From Bacteroidia bacterium (GTDB lineage Bacteria > Bacteroidota > Bacteroidia > SpSt-205), in NCBI GenBank assembly GCA_026003215.1, contig BPGV01000001.1:1428466-1492465 (forward strand): a stretch of 64,000 nucleotides of DNA. The letters run 5' to 3'. Positions 6,222 to 50,967 of the stretch are shown one piece after another. The position numbers were made by a program, and so were the translations under genes. The notes beneath the pieces were generated by a model. The model was not told the DNA's origin and ran no database searches. It worked only from the letters and a program-made list of their open reading frames with translations. Position 1 is the first letter of the stretch; the number at the start of each line of letters is the position of its first letter.

Positions 6222-8482
6222 GACAGGTTCTGCTGGGATGTATCCTCTTTGGTAAAGGACTCTCCGGCTTCGTGGACCTGCGCGCGCTCTCGTTGGGCCG
6301 GCCCCTTCTCTTCGGCACAGAAGGGGCCGGCTTGCGGTATTTTCTCACCCCCACTGGATTTCTCCTCCAGCTATACCAGATGCCTTCTCTTGCTGATGCC
6401 CAGGAGGTTGAGTCTTCTCTCGCAGTCTCTGTCCCCACTTATACCATAGAGGTGCGCTTTGTAAGTAGCTCTGCGCCGACCATCCGCCCGGAGAGCCCTC
6501 TCCCTGCTCCTACGACCTTTTATCTTGCCGGCCAAAAGGCTACCCATTGCGCCTCTTATGCTTTCGTCCGCTACCAGGGAGTCTGGCCGGGGGTAGATGT
6601 GCTTTTCCGTCATCAAGGAAACCGATTGGAGTATGACTTCCTCCTCGCTCCTGGGACTCCTGACTCGCTTATCCGCCTCCAAGTGATTGGCGCCTCCGTG
6701 CAGGTGGAAGCAGGCGAGCTGGTTTTTCGTACGCCTTTGGGGGAGATCCGCCAAAAAGCCCCCAAAGCATGGGCGGGCCCTCGCCTCGTAGCCGCTTCGT
6801 GGAAGGTCTCAGGCGATACCTATGGCATAGCTGTGGAGGGCCGACCACGCTCAGAGGCACTCTTTATTGACCCCATCATACTCTCGTGGAGCACTTACCT
6901 GGGTGGAGAAGGGGACGATATCGGCTGGAGCGTAACCACAGACCCTCAGGGGAATATATACATCGCCGGCTGGACTACTTCTTTTATCTTTTTTCCCATC
7001 ACTACCGGCAGCCATCAGGTTACGTATGGAGGCGGCACTGACGCCTTCCTTGCAAAGTTTTCGCCTTCAGGACAGCTCCTGTGGAGTACTTATTTTGGGA
7101 GCGACTCGTTGGAGATCTTCTATGCTATCCACTACAGCCCCACAGGACAGCTTTACTGCGTAGGCACCACCCGTTCGCCTACCGGCATCGCCACGCCAAA
7201 CGCCTACCAAACCTCCTACGGCGGAGATGGGGATGGTCTCATCGCTGTATTTGATACTCTGGGCACCCTTTTGTGGAGCACCTATGTAGGAGGGCCCTTT
7301 ACCGATCGCCTGCGTAGCGTCTCTGCCGACAGCTTAGGGCATCTTTACGCTATCGGGGCTACCTCCTCTACCGGCTTAGGCAGCCCTTCTACCAGTCAAC
7401 CCTCTTATGGGGGAGGCGCTTCGGATGCCTTTCTGGTCAAGTTTAGTTCAACGGGGGGGCTCTTGTGGGCCACTTATCTCGGCGGCACAGGAGAAGAAGA
7501 AGGCTACTTCTGCTTTTATCAGCAAGGCGGTATCTTCGTTAGTGGCGCTACGGGTTCCTTAGACTTTCCGGTTTCGGCGGGGGCTTACCAGACCCAATAC
7601 GGCGGCGGGTTATGGGATGGCTTCCTGGGCCAGTATGATACCGCTGGCCAGCGCTTGTGGCTCACCTACTACGGCGGAGAAGACCGAGATTGGCTCTATG
7701 GCGTAAGTGCTACCCCTACCAGCGAGGTATATGCCACCGGCTCCACAGGCTCCAGAAGTGGCATCGCCTCCCCAGGCAGCTTTCAATCCCAATACAGTGG
7801 GGGCAGCTGTGATGGCTTCTTAGTCAAGTTTTCTGCCCAAGGGACTCGGCTATGGGCCACTTACTTTGGCGGCGACACCAACGATTGGGGGTACCGCTGT
7901 ATAGCCTCTCCCCAAGGGCAGGTCTTCATAGCGGGATGGACCCGCTCCCGTACGGGGATTGCCACTTCTGACGCACCCCAGCCTACCCATGGGGGGAGTG
8001 TTTATGACGGCTTCCTCATGATATTCTCTCCTTCAGGCTACCGCATTTGGGGCACGTATATCGGCGGAACGGGTATAGACTGGGCCAGAGAATGTGCTCT
8101 TTCACCTGCCGGCATACTCTATGCCACTGGCTATACCAGCTCTCCTGGCCTTGCTACCCCTGGAAGCTTCCAAGAGGTAAATAAGGGTGGGTTTGAGGCT
8201 TTTCTGGCCTGTTATGCGGACAGTTCTGCCGTTTCCTTTCTCCCTCATGCAGGTTCGAAAGCTTCTACCTGGACTTTCTCCCCGAATCCTTCTGCGGGTA
8301 CCATCAGTCTATACACGCCCGTTCCAGCAACATTCGTCGTATGGGCGCTTTCCGGCGAGGAGCTTCGCCGTATCTCTCTACCGTCGGGCACTCATACCGT
8401 TTCCCTCGCTCTCCCTCAAGGCGTGTACCTTCTCCAGCGCGAGGGCGAGCGCAATAGCCACTTGCTGTGGATAGTGCCATGA
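6218..8482 (+). CDS. Secreted SBBP beta-propeller protein with T9SS-like C-terminal domain (second copy)
   Basis: A tandem paralogue of the preceding gene, 754 residues, starting in an ATGA overlap (6218-6221). It has a short hydrophobic N-terminus and an N-terminal domain that keeps the GVWPGVDVLF and LEYDFLLAPG features shared with the first copy but has lost the FRENKGQ segment. Seven W(S/A)TY(L/F)GG repeats follow, then a T9SS-like C-terminal domain with VVWALSGEEL and GVYLLQREG. Divergence is large outside the repeat cores, so the duplication is not recent. The longer frame from 6083 overlaps the first copy out of frame and is rejected. Confidence 0.88.
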   Translation: MRQVLLGCILFGKGLSGFVDLRALSLGRPLLFGTEGAGLRYFLTPTGFLLQLYQMPSLADAQEVESSLAVSVPTYTIEVRFVSSSAPTIRPESPLPAPTTFYLAGQKATHCASYAFVRYQGVWPGVDVLFRHQGNRLEYDFLLAPGTPDSLIRLQVIGASVQVEAGELVFRTPLGEIRQKAPKAWAGPRLVAASWKVSGDTYGIAVEGRPRSEALFIDPIILSWSTYLGGEGDDIGWSVTTDPQGNIYIAGWTTSFIFFPITTGSHQVTYGGGTDAFLAKFSPSGQLLWSTYFGSDSLEIFYAIHYSPTGQLYCVGTTRSPTGIATPNAYQTSYGGDGDGLIAVFDTLGTLLWSTYVGGPFTDRLRSVSADSLGHLYAIGATSSTGLGSPSTSQPSYGGGASDAFLVKFSSTGGLLWATYLGGTGEEEGYFCFYQQGGIFVSGATGSLDFPVSAGAYQTQYGGGLWDGFLGQYDTAGQRLWLTYYGGEDRDWLYGVSATPTSEVYATGSTGSRSGIASPGSFQSQYSGGSCDGFLVKFSAQGTRLWATYFGGDTNDWGYRCIASPQGQVFIAGWTRSRTGIATSDAPQPTHGGSVYDGFLMIFSPSGYRIWGTYIGGTGIDWARECALSPAGILYATGYTSSPGLATPGSFQEVNKGGFEAFLACYADSSAVSFLPHAGSKASTWTFSPNPSAGTISLYTPVPATFVVWALSGEELRRISLPSGTHTVSLALPQGVYLLQREGERNSHLLWIVP

Positions 8483-41896: not shown

Positions 41897-44800
41897 TTGC
41901 AGGGGGTTTTCTTACCTTGGGGGGTGTGGCGTTATGGAGGAATACTCGGTCTCTTATGGGCCCAGACATTTTATATTCAGGTGAAGCCTTCTGCCCAAGC
42001 GCTGAAGGCAGCCCTTGAGCAGGCCAGTAGAGATACTAAACCTTCTTTGCGCCTTGGAGGGCCAGTATGGCAAGGTCTCCAAAAAGTAGAAGAACCTTTT
42101 CTGGACGGAACAGCCTTTCCCGAGCTGGAGGGGTGGTTTGTGGTACATTTCGCGGGGCAGGACCCAACAGCGAGATACCAAGCCCTCCTTTCCCTCCCAG
42201 AAGTATCCTGTGTGGAACCTGCAGGGGGAAGGCATCTGTGCCATGGCGAGGCCATAGAAGGGAACCTTTTAGGCTGGCATCATGTAGCCCTCCAGACAGC
42301 AGAGGCCTGGACACGCACCCAGGGTACGCCAAATGTGGTTATTGCGCTGATAGACTCGGGCACAGAGTGGGACCTGCCGGCCTTTTATCATCAGTTATGG
42401 ATAAACGCCGCAGAAGACCTAAATGGCAACCGGCAACTGGACTCTTTAGACCTTAATGGCATAGATGACGACGGGAACGGCCTCATAGACGATGTAATAG
42501 GGTACGACTTTACGGACCAGCCGTATAGGGTAGGTATGGGCGACTACATAGGCCCTGACCCGTGGCCAGCCGACCAGAACGGCCATGGAACCGCTATGGC
42601 CAGCCTCATGGTGGGGAGACCTGACCGCTCGCCCGTAGCTGGCATAGCGCCGGGTTGCCGAGTGATGGTGCTTCGGTGCTTTGAGGCTGGGGGGTACGGC
42701 GAGGATGACGATATCGCTCGGGCGATTGTATATGCTGCCCGGCAAGGGGCCCGGGTGATTAACTGCAGTTTTGGGGATGAGCGGCCTTCTCGGCTTATGC
42801 AAGCAGCTATTGCGTATGCGTATCGGTTAGGCGCTGTGGTGGTAGCCGCTTCAGGGAATGGTACGGGAGCCCGGTCGCATTATCCCTCCGGTTTCCCGGA
42901 AACCATAGCTGCGGGCGGCCTGGCTTATGACGAAGGAAGCGGAAGTTTTTACCTGTGGCCGCTCTCGGGGTACTTTCGGGTAGATTGGATCGCGCCGGCA
43001 AGCTCGGTACCTGCCCTCCTTCCAGATGGCTCTGTACAGCTCCTAAGTGGGACAAGTGTGGCGTGTGCTCTTTCTTCTGCCGCAGCGGCGCTGCTTTTGA
43101 GTGCGTATCCTTCGCTCTCGCCGGAAGATGTGCGCGCTACTTTGGCGGCACGGGCCCTTCCACTGGGAGCGCAGCGGTGGAGCCCGTACAGTGGCAGTGG
43201 GCGTCTGGTTCTTCTCCCGGCTTTGGACCATCCGCAGGCTGCCCACGCGGGATGGCTTTATCCTCCTGCCGATGCAGTGGTGACAGGTCCTGTGCCGCTG
43301 GTTTTTTCTACCTATCATAGTCTGTTGGCAGGGTGGGAGGTGGCCTGGGCGAGCTCTCTTGAGGCGCCTTGGCAGGTTCTTCGTACGGGCACACAACCCA
43401 GCATACGAGATACGTTTTTGGGGTGGGTGCCCCCTTTAGGAAAGTCATTCTTACGCCTGCGCCTCACCTTACGGAACGGCCAAGAGGTAGCTTATACCCT
43501 CTCCCTACAAGGGGTGCCTCTGGGCCTCTCCTTCCACCACTTGGATGTCAGCCCGGCCTGGCAAAATGGCTTCTCAGGAAATATCCTACGATGGCATCTA
43601 AATGCGGCGACGCCGACTTGTGTCTCTGCGGGGCCCTTTCGCGCCTGTGCCGATAAGCTGGACACTGTCGGAAGCGTGTGGCTCCCTGCTTATGCTGACC
43701 CTTCCACGCAGGTGGAGGCTTATGGCCTTACCGATACCCTGCGACAATCCCTTACCCTCGCCGATAGGATACCTCGGGCCTTACCCTATGCGCCCTGGAT
43801 GGCCACGGCTCTCATAGCGCCAGGGGGATTTTATTTCCCTGAGACCGGGGAGGATTGGAACGGGGATGGCCTACCTGACCTCGTGGTCAGTGGAATAGAC
43901 CCTACTACGGGACGCCTGGGACGGTTATACTTCCTCCGGCAAGCGGGAAGTGCATTTGTGCCTTATGATAGCATACCTGGCCGTAGGCTTTTGCCGCGAG
44001 ATATAAGGGATTGGGATGGGAATGGTGAGCCGGAGCTTTTGTGTGTATGGATAGATAGTTTTTTTGTCTTTGGGGGGAGTCCGCCTAAAAATCTCCTATA
44101 TGCCGGGCAGGGGCGGGCAGCCCGGCTTGACGCCGGTCAGACCGTATGGCTACGCACCGAGGGGGGCAGTTACCTCCTGCGTACGACCAGTGGCCAAGAG
44201 CTACGGCTTCTTTCGGACACGGTGCCTTGGGCGGGGAATACCACTGTGCCTCGGTTGATTCGCCTGCACACCGCAGTGGAAACCCTCTGGGCCTTCGGCA
44301 ACTATCCGGGCTGGATATTTCTGTATACGCCTACGGGGCAGCTTCAAAAAGTACTTCCCACCGACTTATGGGAGGTAGGTTCGCATCTTTTGAGCTACGA
44401 CGTAACGGGCGATGGCAGTGAAGAGCTCATTTACTTGGGGCAAGGCAAGGACGGGCAATGGTGGGAGTTAGGCGTGTATCAAGGTCCGTCGTGGGTGCTG
44501 AGAGATAGGGTGCGTTTTTGGGGCGGGGTTAGCGGCCAGGCGCGTCTCATAGCCGGCGAAGGCATCTTCGGCGTATGGCTGCCCCCTTATCTGTATGTGG
44601 CACGCTTTCAAGGAGGGGCGTGGTCGGTCCGGGCTTTTGATGCTGAAATCTGGGGCGCTTTTGGCCTTTGGACCATCGCCGGCGATACGTTATTCCTCTT
44701 AGGACGCGATAGCGTGCCCCGATTTTATCGGCTGGTCCCTCCTTTTTTGCCTGCACCCGCATGGGCTAAACCTGGTGCCCTCTCCCCTACCCAAGTGCGC

Positions 44801-45799
44801 TTGCGGTGGTACGCTGTACCGGGGGCCACGGGATATGAGCTTTTTCGGGTAGAACCCACAGGAAATCTCGCTCTCCGCTATACAGGAGGTGATACCATTT
44901 ACGTAGATAGCACTGCGGCGGGAGGGGCGTATTATTACCTCGTTCGGGCGCTGGGAGGGGCTTTCTCCGAGCCGTTTTTTGTACAGCCCGGCGAACGCCC
45001 TTGCTTAGATACCGCTTGGATAGACAGTACAGGGCTCTGTTATGTAGAGGGAAACGGAACCTGGGCCGGGGAAAGTACCGAAAGCTTCTGGATAGAACCG
45101 GGCCCCTACAGGCCTGCATTGGCTACGGCAGTGGGGAAATCGTGGCTATTACAGTTTGGGGCCGAAGCTTCTGGGGCGGTGACCTTACTTGTAGATACGC
45201 TACTTACGGATGTACAAGGGCGGTATTTGCGGGGGGATTGTGGAATCCTTTTCCTTGGGCGGCAAGTACTTCCGTCCTGCGTGACCCCAGTAAGTTGGCG
45301 TATAGTGGGTGAAAAGGAAGTTGAAGTACTCTTTTCTGGGGGGCTTCCTGCTCAAGCGCTGGATAAAGCGCAGTATCGGCTCACCCCGGTAGGGGAGGTA
45401 GAGGCTATTTCGCCTGTGCCTGGGGGCCTTCGCTTTCGTCTTTCGGTGGGGCCTTCTGTGTGGCCTATAGAGCTTCACTGGGGCTGGCAGGCCGCCCGCT
45501 GTCCCAGTTCAGTAGCTTTTTCTCCCCGAGAAACTTCCCAGCAGACATGGGGAGTCTTTCCTAATCCCTGTACTTCTCGCCATCGGTTTGTGCAGTTTTG
45601 GGGGCTACCCGCCGGTACAGACGTGCGGGTGCTCACCGCAGAAGGTACGCTTTGTGCCCAGTTCCAGATCTCAGGAGAAGAGACCCCTATTCCCTGGGAG
45701 CCTCGTTCTCTTAATGGAGAACGGCTCGCCCCCGGCCTATACCTAATTTATGTCCGGCGCGGGGAATGGCAGGCCACAGAAAAACTCTTCCTCCACTAA
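41897..45799 (+). CDS. Large secreted subtilisin-like protease with FG-GAP-like repeats and T9SS-like C-terminal domain
   Basis: A 1300-residue secreted S8 peptidase. A signal peptide (to about 23, LLWAQ) is followed by a prodomain-like segment (about 25-120) and the S8 domain with Asp153 (LIDSGTEW), His230 (NGHGTAMAS) and Ser387 (SGTSVA). An Asp-rich insert (about 174-200) looks like a Ca site. Further on are FG-GAP-like segments DWNGDGLPDL, DWDGNGEPEL and DVTGDGSEEL, a fibronectin-III-like stretch near 960-1040, and a C-terminal T9SS-like domain (NPCTSRHRF ... GLYLIYVRRG). The TTG start is supported by AAGGAGG. Probably exported by the type IX system and acting outside the cell. Confidence 0.9.
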   Translation: MQGVFLPWGVWRYGGILGLLWAQTFYIQVKPSAQALKAALEQASRDTKPSLRLGGPVWQGLQKVEEPFLDGTAFPELEGWFVVHFAGQDPTARYQALLSLPEVSCVEPAGGRHLCHGEAIEGNLLGWHHVALQTAEAWTRTQGTPNVVIALIDSGTEWDLPAFYHQLWINAAEDLNGNRQLDSLDLNGIDDDGNGLIDDVIGYDFTDQPYRVGMGDYIGPDPWPADQNGHGTAMASLMVGRPDRSPVAGIAPGCRVMVLRCFEAGGYGEDDDIARAIVYAARQGARVINCSFGDERPSRLMQAAIAYAYRLGAVVVAASGNGTGARSHYPSGFPETIAAGGLAYDEGSGSFYLWPLSGYFRVDWIAPASSVPALLPDGSVQLLSGTSVACALSSAAAALLLSAYPSLSPEDVRATLAARALPLGAQRWSPYSGSGRLVLLPALDHPQAAHAGWLYPPADAVVTGPVPLVFSTYHSLLAGWEVAWASSLEAPWQVLRTGTQPSIRDTFLGWVPPLGKSFLRLRLTLRNGQEVAYTLSLQGVPLGLSFHHLDVSPAWQNGFSGNILRWHLNAATPTCVSAGPFRACADKLDTVGSVWLPAYADPSTQVEAYGLTDTLRQSLTLADRIPRALPYAPWMATALIAPGGFYFPETGEDWNGDGLPDLVVSGIDPTTGRLGRLYFLRQAGSAFVPYDSIPGRRLLPRDIRDWDGNGEPELLCVWIDSFFVFGGSPPKNLLYAGQGRAARLDAGQTVWLRTEGGSYLLRTTSGQELRLLSDTVPWAGNTTVPRLIRLHTAVETLWAFGNYPGWIFLYTPTGQLQKVLPTDLWEVGSHLLSYDVTGDGSEELIYLGQGKDGQWWELGVYQGPSWVLRDRVRFWGGVSGQARLIAGEGIFGVWLPPYLYVARFQGGAWSVRAFDAEIWGAFGLWTIAGDTLFLLGRDSVPRFYRLVPPFLPAPAWAKPGALSPTQVRLRWYAVPGATGYELFRVEPTGNLALRYTGGDTIYVDSTAAGGAYYYLVRALGGAFSEPFFVQPGERPCLDTAWIDSTGLCYVEGNGTWAGESTESFWIEPGPYRPALATAVGKSWLLQFGAEASGAVTLLVDTLLTDVQGRYLRGDCGILFLGRQVLPSCVTPVSWRIVGEKEVEVLFSGGLPAQALDKAQYRLTPVGEVEAISPVPGGLRFRLSVGPSVWPIELHWGWQAARCPSSVAFSPRETSQQTWGVFPNPCTSRHRFVQFWGLPAGTDVRVLTAEGTLCAQFQISGEETPIPWEPRSLNGERLAPGLYLIYVRRGEWQATEKLFLH

Positions 45800-45801
45800 G
45801 C

Positions 45802-45818
45802 TTGGCATGAAGTTTGCC
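45802..45818 (+). promoter_or_regulatory. Sigma-54-like promoter (-24/-12) for the DEAD-box helicase
   Basis: TTGGCATGAAGTTTGCC has the GG-N10-GC spacing of sigma-54 promoters (TGGCAT-N5-TTGC; consensus TGGCAC-N5-TTGC). The predicted start, about 12 nt past the GC, leaves a leader of about 23 nt containing AAGGA before ATG 45852. Confidence 0.55.
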
Positions 45819-45851
45819 CCCTGACGAAGCCGGTTTATTAAGGAAAATCCA

Positions 45852-46949
45852 ATGAACACCCCCTTCATGCAACTGAGCCCTCTCTTACAGAGGGCCTTAA
45901 GCGACATGGGCTTTGAGAAGCCTACACCCATCCAGCAAGCAGTCATACCCGTAGCGCTAAAAGGCTATGACATATTGGCACAAGCCGCTACTGGCACAGG
46001 AAAGACCGCAGCTTTTGGTATCCCCATTATCGAAAAAATGGACAGAGACCAGGGTTTGGGTTCGCTTATTCTCACGCCTACGAGAGAACTTGCCTTACAA
46101 GTAAAAGAGCACCTGTATCAGCTCTCTAAATACAAGAAGCTCAGAATATGGAGTTTTTATGGGGGGAGACCTGTGTATAAGGATATAGAACTCCTGACAA
46201 AAAATACGCCTCACATCATAGTAGGAACGCCGGGACGGATTAAGGACCTTACCCAAAGAGGCGTTTTGGCATACGAATGTGTCAGGCATTTTGTCCTTGA
46301 TGAGGCCGATTGTATGCTGGATATGGGTTTCATTGAGGATATAGAATGGATTATCAGGCGCCTTCCCCAAGAAAGACAGAGTTTCTTCCTTTCGGCTACG
46401 ATACCCACCCCGATTAGAATATTGGCTGAAAAGTATCTGAGGAGAGGGTATCAGTTTATACGGGTTTCAGGGGAAGATCTGAGGCCTAATATAGAAGAAA
46501 AGTTGATAAAACTCGGCTCTTCTGCGATGAAAATCACTGAACTTGAAAAGATTATAAGAAATCATGAACATGAAAAGGCAATAGTTTTTGTCAAGACAAG
46601 AAGTGATGCTCGGAATGTGGCGGAAAGTCTCAAGCGCAAGGGTCTTAAGGTGGTTCCGCTCCACGGAGATATGAACCAAAAACAAAGAGAAGAATCGCTC
46701 AGGTCTTTTAAGGAAGGTAGAGCTATGGTAGTGGTAGCGACAGATGTCGCCTCCAGAGGGCTTGATATTAGGGGAGTGGGCCTCGTGGTAAACTATCAAA
46801 TACCCGAAGACCCCGAGGTATATATACATCGGATAGGACGCACAGGGCGAATAGGCTCCCATGGGAAAGCGTATAGCCTGATAACGCCTGAGGACAATAG
46901 GGCTTTGGGCAAAATAAAGAAACTTAAGAGAGATTACTTGCAGTTGTAA
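45852..46949 (+). CDS. DEAD-box RNA helicase
   Basis: A 365-residue ATP-dependent RNA helicase core without the long C-terminal tail of CsdA/DeaD or RhlE. Motifs: Q motif GFEKPTPIQ, Walker A AATGTGKT (45-52), PTREL, TPGR, DEAD (in VLDEADCML), SAT, and C-terminal ARGLD-type and HRIGRTGR motifs. Likely RNA unwinding in ribosome assembly or cold adaptation. Base use differs sharply from its neighbours: lines I counted run 38-52% GC against about 60% in the subtilase, with many AGA, AAA and ATA codons. AAGGA at 45840-45844 is a proper Shine-Dalgarno, and a hairpin terminator follows. Together this suggests acquisition from a lower-GC genome. Confidence 0.92.
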   Translation: MNTPFMQLSPLLQRALSDMGFEKPTPIQQAVIPVALKGYDILAQAATGTGKTAAFGIPIIEKMDRDQGLGSLILTPTRELALQVKEHLYQLSKYKKLRIWSFYGGRPVYKDIELLTKNTPHIIVGTPGRIKDLTQRGVLAYECVRHFVLDEADCMLDMGFIEDIEWIIRRLPQERQSFFLSATIPTPIRILAEKYLRRGYQFIRVSGEDLRPNIEEKLIKLGSSAMKITELEKIIRNHEHEKAIVFVKTRSDARNVAESLKRKGLKVVPLHGDMNQKQREESLRSFKEGRAMVVVATDVASRGLDIRGVGLVVNYQIPEDPEVYIHRIGRTGRIGSHGKAYSLITPEDNRALGKIKKLKRDYLQL

Positions 46950-46987
46950 GGCACTCCTGCTTGATATCGGTGGGAAGCAGGCTAAGG

Positions 46988-47026
46988 ATGCAGAGCCTTT
47001 TGTAGAAGATAAAGACTCTGCATTTT
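46988..47026 (+). terminator. Hairpin terminator after the helicase
   Basis: ATGCAGAG pairs with CTCTGCAT; after a C-A mismatch CTTT pairs with AAAG, then a loop. A TTTT run follows the stem. It lies 38 nt after the helicase stop. The U-run is short, so efficiency is uncertain. Confidence 0.55.
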
Positions 47027-47114
47027 AGGGAAACTTTCTGGGTAGCGAATCCGGGTCTGCGGGGATAGAGGAGAGGCGGTTGTAGTAGGAGAGAAAACGG
47101 ACAAGAGCAGAGAT

Positions 47115-47131
47115 TTGGCACAAAGTTTGCC
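47115..47131 (+). promoter_or_regulatory. Sigma-54-like promoter (-24/-12) for the LPP20-caspase operon
   Basis: TTGGCACAAAGTTTGCC is an exact TGGCAC-N5-TTGC match to the sigma-54 consensus and is identical at 15 of 17 positions to the site before the helicase. The predicted start (about 47141-47143) is only a few bases before ATG 47147. Confidence 0.6.
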
Positions 47132-47146
47132 ACTATTCACTTTGCT

Positions 47147-47785
47147 ATGCGAACCGTAGTCGTAGCCTGTGTTGTCGGGCTTTTGAGCCTTATGCTCGCC
47201 CAGACGACCGAAAAGGAAGCCAAGAAAGAGATTCAACGCAAGGCCATCAAAGAAGCCCGGAAGGAGGCCAAACGTTTCAAGAAAGCCGGCTATGAGGTTA
47301 CCCCAGGCTCCCTGCCCATGGAAAAGCAGCTGGAGTACACGTGGATACGGCTTTACCAACGAGACGACAAGGGCCAGGCCCTATACTTGAGTGCAGACGG
47401 AAACGCCGTGGCTGAGACCCGTACCGCTGCCGAAATGCAAGCCTTAGAGGCCGCTAAACTGAACTTAGCGGGGCAGTTGGAGACCTTCATCCGAGCTATT
47501 ATTGAGGCCAACATCGCGAATGCCCAGCTGAATAATGAAGAAGCCACTTCCGTCACGGAGTTCTTAGCTGGTGCCAAAAATGTCATAGTCACCACCCTGA
47601 GCCAAGTAGAGCCGGCTTTCAAGATTTATCGCAATCTCCCTAATAAAAATGTGGAAGTGAATATAAAACTCCTCGTTAATCGGGACCAAGTCCTCTTGGA
47701 GGCCAAGAAACAGATTCGCCAAGAGCTAAAAGAACGCTTGAAAGGTCTCCAAGAGAAGGTAGATAAGCTATTGCCCCTGCAATGA
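47147..47785 (+). CDS. Exported LPP20-like protein, 212 aa
   Basis: Signal peptide MRTVVVACVVGLLSLMLAQ, a highly charged helical stretch (about 20-45, Lys/Glu-rich), then a domain with AEMQALEAAKLNLAGQLE and a TLSQVEPAFKIYRNL strand region that resembles LPP20/LPP20-like lipoprotein domains, ending in a Lys/Glu coiled coil. There is no lipobox Cys. It starts 16 nt after the sigma-54-like site, near-leaderless; TCACTTTG 2 nt upstream could be an alternative -7. It is coupled by ATGA to the DUF4384-like gene. Function unknown. Confidence 0.72.
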   Translation: MRTVVVACVVGLLSLMLAQTTEKEAKKEIQRKAIKEARKEAKRFKKAGYEVTPGSLPMEKQLEYTWIRLYQRDDKGQALYLSADGNAVAETRTAAEMQALEAAKLNLAGQLETFIRAIIEANIANAQLNNEEATSVTEFLAGAKNVIVTTLSQVEPAFKIYRNLPNKNVEVNIKLLVNRDQVLLEAKKQIRQELKERLKGLQEKVDKLLPLQ

Positions 47786-48645
47786 GAGGCCTTTTTGGGG
47801 TGGCTTGGGGGGTGGTCGGCTGGCTGTGGGCCCAGGAAAAGGTGGTCAGTGGTTTTGCGGAAGTGGAGCTACTGCCGGGCTGGTCCTTAGAACGGGCCCA
47901 GCGCCAAGCGTACCAGCTGGCTATCTTCCAAGCCCTCCAAAATGGCTTTCCAACCCAAGTGGCACGCGCCAGTAAATATCTCTTGGAGAATCGCACGCAG
48001 GGCCAAAATGCACAAACACGCACCTACTTTTACCTCACGGCGGACCAATATATCGGGGCCGAGTGGCTCGAGACCTTAGAGGCCCGTTATCAGACGGAGG
48101 TACGCAAGGGCCAAGTATGGGTTTCGTGCAAGGTAAAGGGGCGCGCCCGGGCGCGTCCAGAGCCTCCCCTGCCGCTGGAAGTGCGTACCCTCCGCTGCAG
48201 AGATACCCAGTGCACCACCACAGATTTTTGGGCAGGGGATCCCTTTTTCCTGTATTTTCGTTCGCCGGTGGAGGGGTATCTTCAAGTCTTTTGGGAAGAC
48301 TCCGGCGAAGTCTATCGCCTCCTCCCCTATCAAAATCAACGCATCCAAGCTTGGCCTGCGCGAGCAGATACGACCTATATCTTTTTTGCACCGGATCCCA
48401 AGCGCCGTTCGGAGGCCTTTTGGACGGATGAGCTTATCCTCACCGCAGAAAAGCCTGAAATGCTCCATAAGGTGTATGTCCTCTTCTCTCGGAATCCCTT
48501 GGCTGCCCCGCCCGAACGATTCAACCCTCGGACCGGCTTCCACACAGTAAGTCTGCCTGACTTTCAAGACTGGCTCCTCTCAGAGCGACTAAGGCTGCCC
48601 GATTTAAACGTGCGTTTTATAGACATAAGCGTGAGACAACGATGA
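47782..48645 (+). CDS. Exported DUF4384-like protein, 287 aa
   Basis: Signal peptide ending GWLWAQ, an N-terminal region (about 20-125) resembling the LPP20-like domain of the preceding gene (SLERAQRQAYQLAIFQALQ), then a DUF4384-type domain (about 140-245) whose GDPFFLYFRSPVEGYL and GEVYRLLP strands are typical. In other bacteria DUF4384 is often found with caspase-like or Ser/Thr kinase domains. It starts in an ATGA overlap (47782-47785) and ends in another with the caspase gene. Confidence 0.72.
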   Translation: MRGLFGVAWGVVGWLWAQEKVVSGFAEVELLPGWSLERAQRQAYQLAIFQALQNGFPTQVARASKYLLENRTQGQNAQTRTYFYLTADQYIGAEWLETLEARYQTEVRKGQVWVSCKVKGRARARPEPPLPLEVRTLRCRDTQCTTTDFWAGDPFFLYFRSPVEGYLQVFWEDSGEVYRLLPYQNQRIQAWPARADTTYIFFAPDPKRRSEAFWTDELILTAEKPEMLHKVYVLFSRNPLAAPPERFNPRTGFHTVSLPDFQDWLLSERLRLPDLNVRFIDISVRQR

Positions 48646-50486
48646 GAAGCGTACTCTTCTTGGGTTTCGGGCTGAGCGTTCTGGCCCAGCCGTATAAGGA
48701 CTTGGAAGGGCACGGAGGAAGTGTAAATGCCCTTCTTTTTAGCGCCGATAGTCGGTATCTGCTCACGGCCAGTAGCGATAGGGCCGTACGCTTATGGCAT
48801 ATTCCGTATGGGACGCTTTTAGGGCGCTATACGGGGGCATCAGCCAGCGTAAATGTCCTTGCAGGCGTAAGTGATAGTGCTGGTACTTTTTGGGGGGCCT
48901 CAAGTGATGGGAAGCTCTACCAGTGGAGTCTCCATCAGTATCGCCAGGGTGCGGCCGGGGCAAATCCTTCTGCGCAAACCTTCCGGCCGCTGCGCACCGA
49001 GGCGCTCAGTCGGCGAGTGGATAAGACCCGCCCGGTGGAGGCATGGGAAGCTATCGTTTTGCACCCCACTAAGCCGGTGGTGTTTGCCCTCGGCCGAAGT
49101 GGTCGTCTCATAGCGTGGGAAACCGAAGAGGGGTGGCTTCAAACCTTCCGGGATACGGCTGGGGTCGCATATGCTTTATTACTACCCACACATGCCAAGA
49201 CCCTCTATGTAGGCAGCGGTAGTGGTGTAATCTACGCCTTAGACCCTGCAACGCTTTCTGTACAGCGGGTACTACGGGGGCATACGCGGGGGGTGCGGGG
49301 CTTGGCTATCAGCCCGGACCAGCGTACCCTCGCCAGCGCCGGCTTAGATGGGAAGGTCATGCTCTGGACTATCCCCGAAGGCCTGCGTATCCGCACCTTA
49401 GAGAAGCATACCGATGGTGTGCGCGCCGTGGCTTTCAGCCCGGATGGGCGGTATTTAGCCAGTGCCGGTCGCGATGGCCTCCTCTGCCTCTGGAATGTGG
49501 CTTCAGGACGGCTGGAAAAGACCCTCTCCTTGGAAAACGCGCTATGGACGGTGGCCTTTAGCCCTAACGGCCAGTACCTTGTGGCTGGCGGAGAAGGCGG
49601 TCTCCTGCGCATGTGGCGCATAGACCAACTGGGGATCCGGCCTGTTCAGCTTATCGCAGAAACAGACTCCCTGTATGCGCCCCCCGTAGACATAGACGAC
49701 AACATCCCGCAGTGCCGTACCGTGCACGCTCATCGCTATGCGTTTATTGTAGGAAATGAAGACTATCGCAGTTATCAGCCTTCCTTTACCCCAGCGATGA
49801 ATGTACCCTATGCGGTGCAGGATGCGTATGCTTTCCGGATGTATGCTGAGCAAATGCTGGGGATACCCGCTCGGAATATCGTCTTTCTCCAAAATGCCAC
49901 GAGTGCCCAGCTTAAGCGGGAGTTAGAAAAGCTGGTCATTCTTTTGCAAAATACTGGCGGGAAAGCAGAAGTGTTTTTCTACTATGCGGGGCATGGCGTA
50001 CCACATCCAGAGACCCAGGAGAGCTATCTCCTCCCCGTGGATGTCTCGCCCACCACACCAGCAGAAGGGGGCATGCGCCTCACAGAAGCGGTAGAAAAAC
50101 TGGCGCAGAGTGGAGCGGGTCGCGTGTGGATGATTGTAGATGCTTGCTTTAGTGGGGGTGCTCGAGAGGAGAGCCCCTTGGCGGCCCGGGGCATCCGCAT
50201 TCGCCCCAAACCGGTTGTCCTTACGGGTCCGGTGGTACTCATTTCTGCCACCACCGCCGAAGAAGAAGCCTTACCCTATCACCAGGCCCGCCATGGCCTC
50301 TTTACGTATTTTCTTTTGAAGGAAATCCGTGAGGCTGGCTGCCAGCCGAAACCGCTCCAATCCCTACTACAAGAAGTCGCAGGGGAAACCACCCGCTATG
50401 CGCTCCTACTCCATAATAAGCTCCAACGACCTACGTGGTTGATCAGTCCAGCGCTGCCCGACAGTGTGCTGACTGAAAGTTGGTAG
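48642..50486 (+). CDS. Exported WD40-repeat caspase-like (C14) peptidase
   Basis: A 614-residue protein: signal peptide (to about 16, VLAQ), about seven WD40 repeats (20-330; e.g. LASAGLDGKVMLW) forming a propeller, and a C-terminal caspase/metacaspase-fold domain (about 363-600) with catalytic His451 (YYAGHG) and Cys502 (VDACFSG). The catalytic pair is intact, so an active Cys protease, probably Arg/Lys- or Asp-specific, is likely. The signal peptide places it outside the cytoplasm, unlike most bacterial caspase-like immunity proteases. It is the last gene of the ATGA-coupled three-gene operon behind a sigma-54-like site. Confidence 0.88.
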   Translation: MRSVLFLGFGLSVLAQPYKDLEGHGGSVNALLFSADSRYLLTASSDRAVRLWHIPYGTLLGRYTGASASVNVLAGVSDSAGTFWGASSDGKLYQWSLHQYRQGAAGANPSAQTFRPLRTEALSRRVDKTRPVEAWEAIVLHPTKPVVFALGRSGRLIAWETEEGWLQTFRDTAGVAYALLLPTHAKTLYVGSGSGVIYALDPATLSVQRVLRGHTRGVRGLAISPDQRTLASAGLDGKVMLWTIPEGLRIRTLEKHTDGVRAVAFSPDGRYLASAGRDGLLCLWNVASGRLEKTLSLENALWTVAFSPNGQYLVAGGEGGLLRMWRIDQLGIRPVQLIAETDSLYAPPVDIDDNIPQCRTVHAHRYAFIVGNEDYRSYQPSFTPAMNVPYAVQDAYAFRMYAEQMLGIPARNIVFLQNATSAQLKRELEKLVILLQNTGGKAEVFFYYAGHGVPHPETQESYLLPVDVSPTTPAEGGMRLTEAVEKLAQSGAGRVWMIVDACFSGGAREESPLAARGIRIRPKPVVLTGPVVLISATTAEEEALPYHQARHGLFTYFLLKEIREAGCQPKPLQSLLQEVAGETTRYALLLHNKLQRPTWLISPALPDSVLTESW

Positions 50487-50499: not shown

Positions 50500-50967
50500 G
50501 TGAAGAAAGCCAAGCTGTGGGCTTATAGCGTATTCCTGTGTGCCGCTTTGAGTGGAATAGCCTTTTTGCTGCCGCAGTTTCGGATAGTGCTATGGGATAC
50601 CGGCCAAGAAGGGTGGCTGTTCTTTTGGGGAGGGCATGCCCGTGTAGGGGCTACGGTGCCGGCAGTAGTGTATGGGATTGCAGCCGTATGGGGACTTTTG
50701 GGAGTGGGTGCGCTCTTCTGGGCTGGCCGCCAAGTGCTTCGCCTGGAGCGCAAAGCTATCGCCTGGCTGAACTGGGCCGCTTTTTTCTTGGTGATGGAAC
50801 TTATATTTCTCTTGGGAGCAGCTGAAGAGGTACTTACCGACCTGCGCGTCCAAAACCTGCATGCGGATAGCTTTGCCCAAGTAGGTAGCTGGCTCACCTT
50901 TATTGTGCTTTTTGTACTACTTTTCCTGCCAGGGCGAGTAAAGAAAGCCCTCTTTAAGCAGGGGTGA
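50500..50967 (+). CDS. Four-helix membrane protein, DUF4293-like
   Basis: A 155-residue protein with four hydrophobic segments (about 8-28, 55-75, 85-107, 125-146), the second after a loop with two Gly-Trp-rich strands (GQEGWLFFWGGHARVG). The layout is that of Bacteroidota DUF4293 proteins, function unknown. It starts with GTG, 4 nt after TACCTTCG. It converges with the 2OG oxygenase, 15 nt between stops. Confidence 0.68.
   Translation: MKKAKLWAYSVFLCAALSGIAFLLPQFRIVLWDTGQEGWLFFWGGHARVGATVPAVVYGIAAVWGLLGVGALFWAGRQVLRLERKAIAWLNWAAFFLVMELIFLLGAAEEVLTDLRVQNLHADSFAQVGSWLTFIVLFVLLFLPGRVKKALFKQG

Follow-up and report, generated by a model that had tools for sequence, protein, structure and literature searches.

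Two near-identical sigma-54-type promoter elements at a helicase gene and an exported caspase operon in a small-genome Bacteroidia bacterium

In Flavobacterium psychrophilum, mapped transcription starts placed sigma-54 promoters before groES-groEL, lon, other chaperone genes, and genes for exported proteins, and one of these promoters was confirmed by mutagenesis (PMC9723704). The same work located the sigma-A box of the Bacteroidota, TAnnTTTG, at positions -12 to -5 and reported that 5.5% of F. psychrophilum mRNAs were leaderless (PMC9723704). A 2025 survey across phyla found that, in Bacteroidota, sigma-54 targets were enriched in GroES/GrpE-type chaperones and in ATP-dependent proteases, including COG0466 (PMC12316311). 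Predicted sigma-54 regulons have also been argued to control lipopolysaccharide, lipoproteins, and other exterior functions (PMC3162934).

Here, we describe two sigma-54-type elements, P1 and P2, in a 64-kb window (the whole stretch of DNA analyzed) of a small-genome Bacteroidia bacterium whose genome is a single contig of 2.27 Mb. In the reading that we consider quite likely, the ORFA-ORFB-caspase operon is transcribed from P2 as a sigma-54 promoter, one member of a small regulon for protein quality control and envelope functions that extends across the genus. P1 is then an element of the same kind at the ancestral site, behind which a helicase gene was inserted; the pair derives from one promoter, and P1 serves the helicase gene. 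The features of the locus are listed in Table 1.

Table 1. Features of the P1/P2 locus, with positions in the window
Feature	Position	Strand	Remarks
S8 (subtilase) peptidase	41897..45799	+	adjoins caspase operon directly in two closest relatives
P1, sigma-54-type -24/-12 element TTGGCATGAAGTTTGCC	45802..45818	+	2 bases past S8 peptidase stop
DEAD-box RNA helicase, 365 aa, core only	45852..46949	+	Pfam DEAD + Helicase_C
Two hairpins after helicase	46957..47022	+	fold; about 46957-46981 and 46990-47022
P2, sigma-54-type -24/-12 element TTGGCACAAAGTTTGCC	47115..47131	+	conserved in 10/11 genomes of order
ORFA, exported, no known family, first gene of caspase operon	47147..47785	+	signal-peptide-like start
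ORFB, exported, weak DUF4384 match	47782..48645	+	4-base overlap with ORFA
Exported WD40 + caspase-like (Peptidase_C14) protein	48642..50486	+	4-base overlap with ORFB
ORFD, small membrane protein	50500..50967	+	kept behind caspase gene in six relatives

The P1 and P2 elements and the sigma-54 machinery

An initial annotation of the window proposed that two near-identical sigma-54-type promoters drive the helicase gene and the caspase operon. The two 17-mers were found at the positions it had given; they have 15 of 17 bases in common and differ at 2. Both contain GG-N10-GC, and P2 is an exact TGGCAC-N5-TTGC, as the annotation had described. The GC is separated from the downstream ATG by 34 bases in the case of P1 (helicase) and by 16 bases in the case of P2 (ORFA). 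Taking the start as 12 bases after the C of the -12 element, the -12 geometry predicts start sites at 45829 and 47142, respectively.

The annotation had noticed no further element on the plus strand. Our scan of the window with the joint P1/P2 pattern, in which up to 3 mismatches were allowed, yielded one other match, on the minus strand (8111-8127) and within a coding region. When the window was shuffled 100 times, matches at the same threshold averaged 0.59, and 3 were never obtained. The stricter pattern TGGCAY-N5-TTGC was expected 0.25 times per 64 kb (both strands) and was observed 2 times, and both copies fell in its non-coding part (roughly 5% of the sequence), immediately upstream of a gene. 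We also scanned 504 kb of the genome with a sigma-54 matrix that was written by hand from the general consensus and was not fitted to P1 or P2. The two elements ranked first and second in this sample, with 18.8 bits; the next site scored 16.3 bits and was within a coding ORF, and the next intergenic site scored 13.9 bits.

The helicase gene and ORFA had been described as lacking a good TAnnTTTG box, and indeed no such box was found between 60 bases upstream and 75 bases downstream of either element. ORFA has only a version with one mismatch, TCACTTTG at 47137-47144, which is without the conserved A.

The genome contains rpoN, on whose presence the initial annotation had staked its proposal, as one complete gene with activator-interacting (AID), core-binding (CBD), and DNA-binding (DBD) domains. 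This gene is preceded by a housekeeping box, TATCTTTG. Our search for enhancer-binding proteins yielded two, each with Sigma54_activat and a Fis-type HTH. The first is of the response-regulator type, with a receiver domain, and its gene adjoins a ribosome-recycling-factor-like gene; the second is receiver-less, and its gene is located between a miaB-like gene and lptE. The contact loops of the two activators read GAFTHA and GAFTSA, not GAFTGA (L074:5778-7148; L075:7042-8226). No convincing common dyad that might be a shared enhancer site was found within 180 bases upstream of 23 sigma-54-type sites.

The caspase operon and the element across relatives

ORFA, whose start was set at 47147 by the signal-peptide start (a simple gene caller gave 47192), is directly downstream of P2. 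P2 therefore precedes the first gene of the operon, and the caspase gene itself is third. ORFA had no Pfam family match. The caspase-like protein carries the motifs YAGHG and DACFSG, and the operon probably ends with ORFD.

Full-length ORFA orthologs were found in nine other genomes of the genus and in one further genome of the order, with identities of 64-91% in the order and 76-91% within the genus. The P2 element was present, at a fixed spacing, in 10 of the 11 readable upstream regions of the order (this genome counted). These orthologous elements showed no variation in TGG, in the A two bases past it, or in TTTG, and the neighboring columns were mostly near random. The base after TTTG was C in 7 of 10 and T in 3 (that is, GC changed to GT). 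The exception was G010, which had no fitting element and had TATATTTG in its place. A perfect TAnnTTTG was located near the ATG in three of the orthologous regions (G007, G004, and G010). In some P2 orthologs, a TAnnTTTG-like box separates the element from the ATG, so housekeeping transcription may contribute.

The same element precedes several other genes of this genome. It is found before groES as TGGCACGCCCTTTGC (L045; G000:C1:2212643-2212657) and before lon as GGGCACAACATTTGC (L025; G000:C1 about 1047026), two genes that we take to be groES and lon from reading their translated sequences. It is also found before the lipopolysaccharide-sugar gene kdsB, a DUF4783 gene, a lipoprotein gene, and the genes for two exported proteins without a known family. 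This target list, which came from the 504-kb sample and pattern searches, is incomplete. In the case of kdsB, GGYATTARGTTTG[CT] was located 12 to 20 bases before the ATG in 7 of 8 same-genus genomes (this one counted; L231-L238). In several of the 8 genomes, an apparent TATCTTTG box, divergent and on the opposite strand, adjoined the kdsB element.

When 13 genomes of the order were searched for the element at a short distance from an ATG, 105 matches were obtained versus 15 for the reversed control; in 47 other genomes of the class, the corresponding numbers were 226 and 113. Motif abundance was also compared with the absence of rpoN across genomes, few of which were without rpoN.

Taken together, rpoN, the two activators, the cross-species footprint of P2, and the occurrence of the same element at groES, lon, and kdsB support the sigma-54 assignment made in the initial annotation. 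The agreement of the targets groES and lon with those of F. psychrophilum is the strongest indirect evidence for sigma-54 and for a proteostasis and envelope-stress theme. Stress-type control, which had been proposed for both units, is a reasonable inference from the groES, lon, and exported-protein targets shared with F. psychrophilum, and it is weaker for the helicase half, which is a recent insertion.

The helicase insertion and alternative readings of the elements

A helicase ortholog was found in none of ten other same-genus genomes, in which the matches were other helicases with about 24-36% identity. Relatives with 37-43% identity were found elsewhere in the class. In named genomes, matches reached only 30-42% and were distributed over many phyla, a pattern that points to no particular donor. 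Of 298 genes in the sample, only one had a lower GC content than the helicase gene (45.5%), whose codon score was 8th from the bottom. Judged from its composition and occurrence, the helicase gene is a compositionally foreign, recent horizontal gain. It has an AAGGA-like ribosome site before its ATG, and the second of the hairpins that follow it is succeeded by ATTTTAG; the two hairpins are a possible terminator.

In two relatives (G009 and G008), the S8 peptidase gene is followed by the element and then by ORFA, with no helicase gene between them. This order indicates that the helicase segment, of about 1.3 kb, is now inside a former single promoter region. P1 is near the ancestral promoter position, and the placement of P2 relative to the ORFA ATG is also as in the relatives. 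The pair is thus most likely one ancestral promoter that is now present on either side of the insert. The two are alike over no more than the 17 bases, which leaves a duplication unproven; the pair may have originated by duplication on insertion, by the arrival of a second copy along with the helicase gene, or by later convergence. The segment (45819-47114) is flanked by direct repeats that are identical at 15 of 17 positions and are also the promoter-like elements. No integrase was found for this segment, and a DNA similarity search found no second copy of the insert-flank DNA in this genome or in 13 relatives.

As the helicase is a recent insertion, P1 may be an inherited or a duplicated copy, and the proposal that P1 drives the helicase gene stands in part: an intact element is present upstream and no other promoter box is, but its use has no comparative support. 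The best-surviving alternative is that P1 is the stranded ancestral promoter of the caspase operon and that the helicase gene is silent or is read through from the S8 peptidase gene. The ancestral position of P1, 2 bases after the S8 stop, fits this idea, as does the foreign and recent nature of the helicase gene, which leaves no conservation behind a coupling of P1 to it. However, P1 is intact and shares the top matrix score, its distance to the ATG is that of the groES element (34 bases), and the helicase gene is preceded by no other promoter box. We therefore regard a stranded P1 as possible but doubtful. We infer transcription of the helicase gene from P1, as well as the duplication.

A second alternative is that P1 and P2 are sigma-A promoters, with the TTG as a -33 box and, for ORFA, the degenerate TAnnTTTG at 47137-47144 as the -7 box. 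Sigma-A promoters of the Bacteroidota do carry TAnnTTTG at -7 (PMC9723704), and the perfect boxes in G007, G004, and G010 noted above point in the same direction. Against this, the spacing between TGG and the TA box varies by species and that of GG-N10-GC is fixed, P1 is without any TAnnTTTG box, and kdsB, groES, and several other genes have the element with no TA box between it and the ATG. We consider the sigma-A explanation improbable.

The housekeeping promoters of this genome were characterized in the 504-kb sample (L209-L228), in which 146 genes had an upstream intergenic stretch of 40 bases or more. In 39 of these genes, TAnnTTTG, mostly as TA[CT]CTTTG, preceded the start by 9 to 20 bases. 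Neither TTGGCA nor any other second box that might be a -33 element was found upstream of these 39 promoters, and the -33/-7 reading was rejected on this basis. The distance from the TA[CT]CTTTG box to the start codon was exactly 4 bases in 22 of the 39 strict boxes. A 4-base gap, combined with the published box position of -12 to -5, makes the first base of the codon the transcription start, and thus the housekeeping promoters look leaderless. In the GG-N10-GC class, the GC mostly preceded the ATG by 12 to 18 bases, so that under the -12 rule transcription would start only a few bases from the ATG; longer distances were seen at P1 and groES (34 bases) and at a DUF3137 gene (43 bases). That these motifs, unrelated and differently spaced, lead to the same kind of start site is as the sigma-54 reading predicts. 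These distances imply that most sigma-54-type promoters here would yield almost leaderless mRNAs.

The idea that P1 and P2 are transcription-factor operators, with an imperfect TGGCA-N7-TGCCA palindrome, finds some appeal in P2, which extends to a perfect 5-base palindrome, TGGCACAAAGTTTGCCA. The kdsB sites are not palindromic, however, and what is kept is GG and TTTG[CT]. A palindromic operator was rejected when the right arm proved not to be conserved (TTTGCAc, TTTGCTa, and TTTGTAc in orthologs), and we view this explanation as very unlikely. Least credible of all is a chance resemblance to the sigma-54 consensus: although the genome has 12 occurrences of the unrestricted pattern versus 6 of its reversed control, with several matches inside genes, P1 and P2 are the best-scoring sites in 504 kb, each lies in an intergenic region ahead of a start, and conservation across the genus already disfavors chance in the case of P2.

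A model for the locus and comparison with known systems

Sigma-54 is probably used at these elements in the cell, together with an activator and its signal, most likely in the following way. At P1 and P2, RpoN polymerase would contact the GG and GC in a closed complex, which one of the two activators would open after a stress or envelope signal. The message from P2 would start about 5 nt before the ORFA ATG, and the first three genes of the operon, with their 4-base overlaps, would probably be translated in succession. P1 would give rise to a short-leader helicase message that perhaps ends at the hairpins. A more far-reaching version is that the foreign helicase gene landed with a copy of a -24/-12 element on either side and thereby joined a proteostasis and envelope stress regulon at once, with the caspase operon kept connected, in a regulon that combines sigma-54 initiation with almost leaderless messages. 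We offer this version tentatively, as it seems to us rather less likely than not to hold in full.

The reading that we prefer, with P2 as a sigma-54 promoter, would place a conserved operon for an exported caspase-like protease in a stress regulon beside GroES and Lon, in a little-studied group of Bacteroidia, and this placement would suggest, in a form open to testing, when bacteria make use of such caspase-like proteins. Our literature search found nothing relevant on sigma-54 control of a metacaspase. The locus may also serve as a compact example of a gene that was gained horizontally and lies behind an activator-dependent promoter, in a genus where sigma-A and sigma-54 promoters both appear to start at or very near the start codon.

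Compared with P1 and P2, the sigma-A TAnnTTTG promoters of this genome are likewise located directly before the start codon, but they have another motif, another distance to the ATG, and no GG-N10-GC. The likeness to the sigma-54 (SM4) regulon of F. psychrophilum extends to groES-groEL, lon, exported proteins of unknown function, a theme of protein quality control and envelope stress, and a sigma-54 activator gene next to lptE (PMC9723704). In contrast, the published selection of F. psychrophilum targets is without a caspase operon, a DEAD-box helicase, and kdsB, and only 5.5% of mRNAs are leaderless there, whereas very short leaders are implied at most sites here (PMC9723704). Caspase, helicase, and kdsB are likewise absent from the main text of the 2025 survey (PMC12316311), and kdsB is absent from the earlier predicted regulons (PMC3162934). 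Thus, P1 and P2 add members to a known kind of regulon, and what is unusual about them is the insertion between two copies of the element and the near-leaderless design.
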